A stretch of 64,000 nucleotides of DNA, from NCBI GenBank assembly GCA_025057935.1, contig JANWUW010000046.1, forward strand, positions 1 through 64,000. The letters run 5' to 3'. Of the stretch, positions 11,448 through 14,445 are shown piece after piece; the stretch's first letter is position 1; the number at the start of each line of letters is the position of its first letter. Origin of the DNA: Thermoflexales bacterium. Lineage in GTDB: Bacteria; Chloroflexota; Anaerolineae; J036; Brachytrichaceae. Both the position numbers and the translations under genes were made by a program. A model generated the notes under the pieces. It was not told the origin of the DNA and did not search any database. It worked only from the letters and a program-made list of their open reading frames with translations.

Positions 11448-11650
11448 CAAGGCAGATTTGAGTATAGCTAAGACAGAACCCGCGTTCGGCGATCGCCGTT
11501 GCGAAGAACCTCGCACATGCCCTAGGACTCTCAGCCCTTTCACCTCCGTCGCTTCAGTTTCCTCTCAGTCTCTCAAGCAAAATCAGAAAGCGTTTGAGAA
11601 TAGAGAGTCGCGCACAACACCGCAGTTGTTGCGACGCTGTGGAGATAGGC

Positions 11651-12238
11651 TTGCTTAAGGTGGCTCGCTGGATCAAATACCCAAGTGCAACGGTCACGGC
11701 GCTGATCACAGCGCCGTGTGAAGTGTTGTTTGAAATCGTGAGCGACCCGCTGCGTCATCCCGAGCTGGCTGGCAGCGGTGAGGTGATGGATACGCGCTGG
11801 GTAACACCGCCGCCGATTGGCGTGGGATCGTGTTTCCAATCCCGCCAGTGCTTCGGCTGGTATCAATACCCCACGCGCTCTTACATTCAGGTCTATGAGC
11901 CGCCCTACCGCTTCATCTGGCTCTCCGGTCCCGGCTTCAAGAAGCCTCCCTTTGGGCAGCTCTGGGGGTTTGAGCTAACGCCGATTGATGAACGCGCGAC
12001 GCTTGTGGCGCACTTGATGCGCGTGCCGCTTTACCCCTTGCCAGCCATCTGGCCCTTCACCTGGCTCGCCGACCGTGGTGCCTTGCACGAAGTCAAGAAC
12101 ATGAAGCCAACGCTTTACAACTTGGCGCGCATGGCAAACGCACAGGTGATCGGCGACCTGCAAGTGGTGCTCGATTGGTGCGAGCGCGCCTCGCCATGTG
12201 GCGAGCGTCTTGTGCTTGTGGGGCAGCCGGCCCGTTAA
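11651..12238 (+). CDS. SRPBCC (START/polyketide cyclase-like) protein
   Basis: A lipid- or ligand-binding fold protein of about 195 residues. The pattern ARWIKYPSATVTALITAPCEVLFEIVSDPLRHPELAGSG is the SRPBCC opening, followed by a strand-rich middle (GSCFQSRQ, YEPPYRFIWLSG, LWGFELTPIDERATLVAHLM) and a long C-terminal helix. The start is uncertain: TTG at 11651 has GGAG 6 bases upstream, and GTG at 11660 is an alternative. The end overlaps the convergent ProRS-like gene by 4 bases. The upstream gap (11448-11650) shows no gene. Confidence 0.7.
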   Translation: MLKVARWIKYPSATVTALITAPCEVLFEIVSDPLRHPELAGSGEVMDTRWVTPPPIGVGSCFQSRQCFGWYQYPTRSYIQVYEPPYRFIWLSGPGFKKPPFGQLWGFELTPIDERATLVAHLMRVPLYPLPAIWPFTWLADRGALHEVKNMKPTLYNLARMANAQVIGDLQVVLDWCERASPCGERLVLVGQPAR

Positions 12239-13746
12239 CGCAGCGCGGCGCGCACATGCTCGAGCACTGCATCCAGCGGCACTAGCGTAGCGTTCTCCTT
12301 GCTGCTGCCGCGCCGACGCATCTCTACGCTGCCCGCCTGCAACGCGCGCGTGCTCACCGTAAGCCGCAGCGGCACTCCCATCAGGTCAGCATCGTTGAAT
12401 TTGACCCCCGGCGATTCCGCGCGATCATCGTAAAGCACTTCCACGCCGTGGCGCGCGAGCAGCGCGTAGAGTTGCTCTGCGGTGCTGACAACAGCCTCGT
12501 CCTTGCCCAACGCTACGAGGTGCGTGTGAAAAGGCGCGACGGTGCTCGGCAAGCGCAGACCAAACTCATCGCGATGGATAGCGGCGAGCGCCCACAGCAG
12601 CGCCTCGAGATCAATGGCGAAGTGGCGCAACAGAGGCACGCGCTCACTGCCCTGAGGGTCGAGATACGTGCCTTCGTAACCCTGCCGATGCTCGCGCATC
12701 AACGCGACGCCCTGCACGGGACGCAGCGGTGCATTGCACTGCGCACACGCGCTCTCTAATGGCGGCATAGCGATGTCGGCAACGCAATCCGCGGTGTAGT
12801 CGCGCCCGTAGTTGGTGTTGCGCAGGTGATACTCCGCCACATTCGCCCCAGCGACGAGATTGGGCGCGCGCGCCACGACCTCATCCACGACGAGCATCCA
12901 GCGTCCATCACGCACAAGCCCGATGGGCGAAGCGTAACCCGGCTCAGCGCCAATCGCGCGGATCTCGGCTTCAGTCGCAGGACGCAGGCGATATGCCCCG
13001 ATCGCCTCGCGCAGCTTGGCTTCGCTGAGCATCATATCGCCGCGCACCACAGCAAAGATGAGCTGATCGCCGCGCTCACGCTCTGCAACGAAGAACAACG
13101 CCTTGGCAGTGGCTGCTGTTGAGATGCCCAAGAAACACGCCAACGTCTCGATCGTCTTACATGCGGGTGTGTGCACGCGCTCCAGCGGTTGCGCCGCAGT
13201 GGTTTCATGCTCAGCCGCCGCGAACCGAGCGTGTTCGACGAAGTCGAGATACCCACAACGGTCGCATGCCAACAGCGCCTCTTCTTTCTCGCCTAGGCAA
13301 ACTAAGCCGTGCGCTGCGCTGTGCACTTCAAAGCCACACTGCTCAAGTGCCGCGCTGAGCGCGCGCCTGATCGCAGCACGCTGTGCTTCATCTTGCTCCG
13401 CGTCGCGCGTGAATGACCATAGATGGAGTTGCGCCTTAGGCGCGCCAAGCTGAAGCGCATAGGCGAGCACGGGAAGCTGGCGATAGGAGCGAAGCACGCT
13501 CCGCCCAAGTAGTGCGATCGCCCGCGGCTCGGCGATCGCCACGGGCTGGGCATTTAGAGCATGCAGGGCTTCCTCCAACACGCGCGCCAACTTGGCCAGT
13601 GCGCGCTGACCGAGAGGGAGATAAGCTCGCCCGCCGTTCTCAAGAAGTCGCGCGTAACCCGCTCGCACTAAAAGGCGCAGCCCCTCATGGCTGACCCCCG
13701 CAGGCATTTCCCGCAGCGTAGTGGAGAACAAAGACGCGAGCCGCAT
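12235..13746 (-). CDS. Prolyl-tRNA synthetase-like protein lacking motifs 2 and 3
   Basis: About 503 residues, against roughly 570 for bacterial ProRS. It keeps the ProRS opening MRLASLFSTTLRE, LRAG/YLPLG-like residues 28-46, SYRQLPVLAY (87-96), a cysteine-pair region near 161-164, an INS/YbaK-like editing domain (about 195-330, with VVRGDMMLSEAKL and LVAGANVAEYH), and the anticodon-binding domain (STVAPFHTHLVAL to the end, with DDRAESPGVKFNDADLMGVP). The block that should carry motif 2 (FRDExRPRFGLMRxREF) is collapsed to LGAPKAQLHLWSF, and motif 3 (GxGxxR) reads AIDLEA. It should not form prolyl-adenylate. It could be a trans-editing factor. An upstream ATG at 13758 is also possible. Confidence 0.82.
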   Translation of the reverse strand: MRLASLFSTTLREMPAGVSHEGLRLLVRAGYARLLENGGRAYLPLGQRALAKLARVLEEALHALNAQPVAIAEPRAIALLGRSVLRSYRQLPVLAYALQLGAPKAQLHLWSFTRDAEQDEAQRAAIRRALSAALEQCGFEVHSAAHGLVCLGEKEEALLACDRCGYLDFVEHARFAAAEHETTAAQPLERVHTPACKTIETLACFLGISTAATAKALFFVAERERGDQLIFAVVRGDMMLSEAKLREAIGAYRLRPATEAEIRAIGAEPGYASPIGLVRDGRWMLVVDEVVARAPNLVAGANVAEYHLRNTNYGRDYTADCVADIAMPPLESACAQCNAPLRPVQGVALMREHRQGYEGTYLDPQGSERVPLLRHFAIDLEALLWALAAIHRDEFGLRLPSTVAPFHTHLVALGKDEAVVSTAEQLYALLARHGVEVLYDDRAESPGVKFNDADLMGVPLRLTVSTRALQAGSVEMRRRGSSKENATLVPLDAVLEHVRAALR

Positions 13747-13797: not shown

Positions 13798-14445
13798 ATG
13801 CCGGAGCGCCACGTTCCAGACATCGTTGTCGCTCGTTTACCGCTATACCTGCGCGCGCTGAGCGCTATTCAGAGAGAAGGGCTGGCTTTCATCTCCTCGA
13901 AGGAGCTGGGCGAGCGGCTGAGCATCAGCCCAGCGCAAATTCGCAAGGATCTCTCGTTGTTCGGGGATTTCGGTCGGCAGGGTAAAGGCTACGAGGTCAA
14001 CGCTTTGCTTGCACGTCTGCGGCGAATCCTAGGCGTTGACCGAGAGTGGCTGATGGTGCTTGTTGGCGCTGGCCATCTGGGCAGCGCGGTAGCAAACTAC
14101 ACCGGATTTGCTCAGCGGGGATTCCGCATTGCTGCGGTCTTCGACAATGACCCTCAGCGCATCGGCGTACGCTTGGGCGAGCACGTGGTGCGGTCAGCAG
14201 ACGAGCTAGACGCGTTTGTGCGCGCGCATGCCATCCGTTTGGCGATGATCGCTGTGCCTGCTTCAGCAGCACAAACAGTTGCTGACCAGCTCGTGAGGGC
14301 GGGCGTGCGCGGCATTTTGAACTACGCGCCGGTGACGCTCACCGTGCCTCCCTCGGTGCGCGTGGAGAACATTGACCCCGTGCTCCACCTCCAGCACATG
14401 ACGTACTACCTTAGCGCGGAGCCAGAGGCAGCTGGCACATCTTGA
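13798..14445 (+). CDS. rex: Redox-sensing transcriptional repressor Rex
   Basis: NADH/NAD+-sensing repressor of fermentation and respiration genes, about 215 residues. The winged-helix region begins MPERHVPDIVVARLPLYLRAL and contains ISSKELGERLSISPAQIRKDLSLFGDFGRQGKGY, the Rex recognition helix. The NAD-binding domain follows (LVGAGHLGSAVANY, VFDNDPQRIG) and ends with NIDPVLHLQHMTYYL. The start at 13798 gives the usual Rex N-terminus; an ATG 15 bases upstream is an alternative. Transcribed divergently from the ProRS-like gene with a very short gap. The end overlaps the DtxR gene. Confidence 0.93.
   Translation: MPERHVPDIVVARLPLYLRALSAIQREGLAFISSKELGERLSISPAQIRKDLSLFGDFGRQGKGYEVNALLARLRRILGVDREWLMVLVGAGHLGSAVANYTGFAQRGFRIAAVFDNDPQRIGVRLGEHVVRSADELDAFVRAHAIRLAMIAVPASAAQTVADQLVRAGVRGILNYAPVTLTVPPSVRVENIDPVLHLQHMTYYLSAEPEAAGTS

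Follow-up and report, generated by a model that had tools for sequence, protein, structure and literature searches.

A minus-strand gene at positions 12235..13746 of the window (the whole stretch of DNA analysed, 64,000 nucleotides) very probably encodes a bacterial-type prolyl-tRNA synthetase (ProRS) that has turned into a free-standing proofreader ('ProRS-ed'), clearing Ala-tRNA(Pro) with its own anticodon-binding domain (ABD) for tRNA choice. The synthetic site was found to be lost, the editing and tRNA-binding sites to be kept, a second synthetase to be present in the genome and selection to be specific to domains. A tRNA-binding editing factor unable to charge, with a presumed activity, had been proposed in the preliminary description, and fits the architecture, the selection, the residue retention and the occurrence of decayed copies almost only beside a type-I ProRS.

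The gene starts with an ATG at 13746, its stop codon ends at 12235 and the product is a ProRS-derived, editing-only protein of 503 amino acids; a plus-strand frame over the same interval was ruled out by its many stops. An alternative upstream GTG start at 13812 is possible, but would result in an overlap with the divergent neighbour rex, the likely start of which lies near 13798. On the other side, a plus-strand ORF of 214 amino acids at 11594..12238, which has no Pfam match and is context outside the proposed mechanism, overlaps the ProRS-like gene tail to tail by 4 bases. G015, an independent assembly from the same genus, has a counterpart of this ORF that is 95% identical and lies on the same side and in the same orientation. 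It also carries an ortholog of the ProRS-like gene with the same architecture (64% identity), and with the frame open throughout this agrees with the earlier view that the gene is not a simple truncation. An assembly artefact or one-off truncation was ruled out by the copies in G015, G014 and L019 and by dozens more. The source genome (G000) comprises 2.27 Mb and is 97% complete.

Alignment to intact relatives (L097 among the references) upheld the earlier claims on the synthetic site, and neither motif 2 nor motif 3 was recovered in intact form. Motif 2, which reads FRDE..R..GL.R.REF.MKD.Y in the intact relatives, is collapsed to the short unrelated stretch LQLGAPKAQLHLWSF (13411..13461, minus strand), forming two strands (residues 93-99 and 106-113 of the structural model) with a short turn and lacking the ATP- and proline-binding Arg and Glu. 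The GxGxxR of motif 3 (GIGVGR in the intact form) reads AIDLEA at residues 377-382 (12601..12618, minus strand), the THEE proline loop is deleted together with 30-odd preceding residues, and the IFKLG (IFKLGT) block is missing. The signature residues retained (one of 13 in motif 2, two of eight in motif 3 and none of four in THEE) fall short of a functional synthetase, and the catalytic signature as a whole amounts to 5/40, compared to 26/26 for the editing/ABD signature. Pfam matched tRNA_edit and HGTP_anticodon alone and found no class II core, while in the intact relative L013 the core domain (PF00587) scored 104 bits. Among the NCBIfam models the protein matches type II ProRS but falls below every curated proS cut-off, with 252.9 bits for NF006625 (cut-off 558; L013 684) and 165 bits for TIGR00409 (cut-off 306.7; L013 583). 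As judged from its sequence, the protein is a bacterial-type (type II) ProRS without its synthetic site.

The INS/YbaK-like domain and the C-terminal tRNA-binding domain had been described as remaining, and both were identified by Pfam with their signature residues kept. The INS (tRNA_edit) domain, PF04073, spans 12811..13170 (minus strand; 85-87 bits, cut-off 25.5) and includes the lysine, GxxxP and histidine of INS-superfamily editing domains: K215 (13102..13104, minus strand), which aligns with the catalytic lysine of INS, K279 in the E. coli ProRS, the GxxxP loop GYASP at residues 270-274 (12925..12939, minus strand) and the active-site H307 of the GANxxxYH block (12826..12828, minus strand). 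The RGD of INS is also kept. The anticodon-binding domain, PF03129 (12250..12516, minus strand; 59.7 bits), carries DDRAESPGVKFNDADLMGVP at residues 440-459 and retains the block DDRxExxGVKFNDADLxGxP. Beyond what was described earlier, motif 1 of the class II dimer interface is not lost (GLRLLVRAGYARLLENGGRAYLPLGQR; 13603..13683, minus strand), and two CxxC pairs are kept, C161 and C164 (13255..13266, minus strand) and C334 and C337 (12736..12747, minus strand). An AlphaFold2 model of the protein (pLDDT 94.1, pTM 0.88) still shows the motif 2 hairpin, as two strands connected by a short turn, and the best match in the PDB is 2j3l, the bacterial ProRS of E. faecalis (TM-score 0.77/0.70). Together with the full-length alignment to intact relatives, this match supports the overall fold and the descent from type II ProRS.

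A search of the genome for a second, complete proS, advised in the preliminary description, identified an archaeal-type (type I) ProRS on a different contig from the window gene; it has no editing domain and scores 522 bits for TIGR00408 (cut-off 437). The window gene is therefore not the only proS of its genome and is not needed for charging; it does contain the only tRNA_edit domain detected in that genome. An editing domain combined with an ABD, no working synthetase site and a partner lacking editing constitute the arrangement known from ThrRS-ed. The genome has three tRNA(Pro) genes (TGG, CGG and GGG; L266, L278 and L283), all of which keep bacterial C1:G72/A73 ends although the charging ProRS is archaeal-type.

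In the mechanism proposed, the archaeal-type ProRS, having no editing domain, would charge tRNA(Pro) and be unable to remove alanine, while the old type-II ProRS has lost its site for ATP, proline and adenylate and kept the dimerising core scaffold, the INS hydrolytic domain and the anticodon-binding domain. The window protein would bind tRNA(Pro) through the anticodon bases G35/G36 and place the tRNA 3' end in the INS pocket, where Ala-tRNA(Pro) mischarged by the archaeal-type synthetase would be hydrolysed, the residual core holding INS and ABD, perhaps as a dimer, in place. That the protein hydrolyses Ala-tRNA(Pro), does not charge tRNA and dimerises is predicted. Editing by the INS domain of E. 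coli ProRS relies on G35/G36, read through the ABD, with little influence of the acceptor stem, in which INS of the intact enzyme tolerates changes (PMC3973320); dependence of INS on the ABD for selecting its tRNA (PMC3973320) would explain why the two domains are kept together. Amino-acid choice varies among members of the INS superfamily (PMC11295145), and free-standing editors in some of the genomes with decayed copies could take Ala-tRNA(Pro), leaving the decayed protein to act on Cys-, Ser- or alpha-aminobutyryl-tRNA or on several tRNAs. Such a different substrate is improbable, as the INS domain is that of a ProRS (62% identity to the intact L097) and the ABD signature is intact.

Residue retention and selection separate the domains sharply. 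In each of the 37 decayed copies, 25 or 26 of the 26 editing/ABD signature residues are retained. Among 36 complete decayed copies, retention is 100% for the INS lysine (K215 in the window protein), for the glycine and proline of GxxxP, for the histidine and for the R and P of motif 1. In the same set the ABD signature residues are 97-100% kept and the INS and ABD residues together 94-100%, with the exception of the alanine beside the lysine (83%), and nearly all residues of motif 2, THEE and motif 3 are only 0-60% kept, the exceptions being a motif 2 G (89%), a motif 2 L (78%) and the L following motif 3 (61%). At matched INS/ABD identity (45-75%), identity in the catalytic N-terminal part is 30-47% for decayed pairs compared to 53-77% for intact pairs. 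The dN/dS of this part is about 0.27 (typically 0.15-0.43) in decayed copies and about 0.05 (0.03-0.13) in intact copies, i.e. approximately five times higher in the former, while that of INS is about 0.13 (0.08-0.19) and 0.12 (0.07-0.20), respectively. A raised dN/dS in the catalytic part with an unchanged INS indicates that constraint has been lifted from the synthetic site alone, and that the gene is not a pseudogene. A redundant type-II ProRS being lost after its replacement by the archaeal-type enzyme would be expected to show the clearly relaxed catalytic part and the fast evolution of the protein, and a stop is found inside the aligned stretch in three genomes (G026, G043 and G321). However, no domain reaches a dN/dS of 1, the constraint on INS equals that in intact enzymes, the INS and ABD signature residues persist in the 36 complete decayed copies, and whole frames of 500-600 amino acids persist in many genera, which makes gene loss in progress very unlikely.

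The speed of protein change is apparent from the comparison to G015, where identity is 64% for the ortholog but 95% for the type-I ProRS of the same two genomes. Synonymous distances of the window gene and two other genes to G015 range from 0.95 to 1.75, near saturation. Horizontal replacement behind the 64% identity is disfavoured, since synonymous distances are high for all genes compared, and the simpler, albeit not proven, reading is vertical inheritance accompanied by rapid protein change.

Decayed copies are widespread in the family and the class. The class is taken to be Anaerolineae (Chloroflexota), since two of its proteins match exactly, over INS and ABD, proteins from MAGs named Caldilineales at NCBI (L016 and L020). 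In the same GTDB family, 22 of 28 genomes have a usable type-II copy (12 decayed, two part-decayed and eight intact), and the archaeal-type ProRS occurs in 25 of the 28. The decayed copy is the sole tRNA_edit domain in G000, G014 (where the gene is split across two contigs), G015, G017, G020 and G024 of this family and, outside it, in G077, G148, G129, G271, G107 and G106. Five genomes of the family that lack a type-II copy and have a tRNA_edit match (G008, G009, G010, G012 and G013) contain short free-standing tRNA_edit proteins instead, most of 157-231 amino acids. Several genomes with decayed copies hold further tRNA_edit proteins, and the role of the decayed copy may be partly redundant there. 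No tRNA_edit domain was found in G104 and G273, two Anaerolineae with a type-I ProRS only, in which proline proofreading may be absent or carried out by something else. Two type-I ProRS matches each were found in G020 and G120.

With the thresholds used, the 395 genomes of the class divide into 178 with both ProRS types, 114 with type II-like only, 86 with type I only and 17 with neither. A total of 138 type II-like copies were classified which, other than those picked for short frames, were top-ranked by similarity to the query and not random. Decayed or part-decayed copies make up 39/92 where type I is present and 1/46 where it is not (Fisher 9e-8), or 26/75 and 1/44 (p 2e-5) when loci picked for short frames are removed; these tests ignore kinship, and as the rows are related the p-values overstate the evidence. 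A phylogenetic pairs test of the link between decay and type I had too few informative pairs to take kinship into account. The exception is G019 (same family, 91% complete), in which a decayed copy is present and a type-I ProRS was not detected. The type-I ProRS is present in its g7 sister genomes and its absence from G019 is probably an assembly gap, otherwise a contradiction; the genomes are mostly MAGs, in which absences are uncertain. Of the loci that come from the named genome collection, L019 (labelled Anaerolineales) has decayed completely and L022 (Candidatus Kutchimonas) in part, and L015 (Bipolaricaulota) lacks one segment and one motif 3 glycine; the genomes of all three have a complete type-I ProRS.

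The two proS types adjoin on one strand in G366 (L173, 2748-5903), G280 (L175, 3159-6709) and G186 (L172, 2976-6726), with gaps of about 55, 348 and 580 bp, respectively, which suggests an operon-like pairing. The proximity of the genes, closest in G366, would also suit a decayed protein that acts as a partner subunit, adding editing to the archaeal-type ProRS in a heterodimer or complex and not as a separate factor. Motif 1 is kept, and in Anabaena editing is provided in this manner by heterodimers of the ThrRS T1/T2 (PMC4787780). A shared dimer interface is however unlikely between ProRS types as distant as these two, and in the source genome their genes are on different contigs; a partner subunit is thus highly doubtful. 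A regulator or sensor without deacylase activity, such as some aaRS paralogues with new roles have become (HisZ and YadB; PMC7373986), is scarcely credible given that all complete decayed copies retain the INS lysine, the glycine and proline of GxxxP and the histidine, and given that rex was not found at the G015 locus, so that a regulatory linkage is not supported.

The separate proofreader favoured here resembles known systems in part. Like the archaeal ThrRS-ed (e.g. of Sulfolobus), it is a separate protein with an editing domain and an ABD whose partner synthetase has no editing. ThrRS-ed, however, is a ThrRS derivative whose editing domain is unrelated and DTD-like, whereas the window protein is bacterial, derives from ProRS, retains a remnant of the core domain and has tRNA_edit/INS as its sole editing-domain match, which places it outside the ThrRS-ed family. 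The INS fold and active-site features are common to YbaK, ProXp-x, ProXp-ala and ProXp-ST1/ST2. Of these, ProXp-ala clears Ala-tRNA(Pro) in organisms with an INS-less ProRS by reading bases 72/73 of the acceptor stem, while the window protein carries its own ABD, and with 503 amino acids, an ABD and a core remnant it is not a single-domain protein of the ProXp type. According to a 2024 review, all INS-superfamily members except the INS of ProRS are single-domain proteins, and trans-editors are generally without RNA-binding domains (PMC11295145). The direct ancestor is type II ProRS with INS, which has the same domain order and about 40% identity to the protein among intact same-family copies; INS, ABD, motif 1 and CxxC have been kept from it, and motifs 2 and 3, the THEE loop and IFKLG lost. 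In Anabaena, as here, synthetases are duplicated and one supplies editing for the other, but T1 is a complete synthetase forming a heterodimer with T2, whereas the window protein has lost its synthetic site. No earlier description of an editing-only ProRS was found in the open-access literature, most subscription literature lying outside the search.

Intact, half-decayed and fully decayed copies coexist. A tree of INS and ABD requires nine changes, or 13 if partial copies are counted, but a topology that constrains all fully decayed copies to a single clade is not rejected (p-AU 0.195), and many independent origins are therefore not claimed for them. Separate part-decay is supported because two clades with support 99 (G025/G026/G027 and G186/G366/G346) mix intact and partial copies. 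It is reasonably likely that an archaeal-type ProRS was gained and that the bacterial ProRS was then repeatedly made editing-only across Anaerolineae, and other phyla may hold partial cases.

Decayed genes can pass for ProRS by partial similarity, and annotations of a duplicated proS consequently need checking. The ProRS editing site is located about 70 angstroms from the anticodon, and an INS editor with an ABD is the expected natural counterpart of an INS domain that borrows its tRNA choice from the ABD. The series from intact to decayed copies within one class offers a direct test of how a distant editing site is governed once the synthetic site is gone, and of how a synthetase turns into a dedicated proofreader. 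If the repeated conversion is true, it would constitute a naturally occurring, graded series in which an essential enzyme abandons synthesis but retains proofreading.
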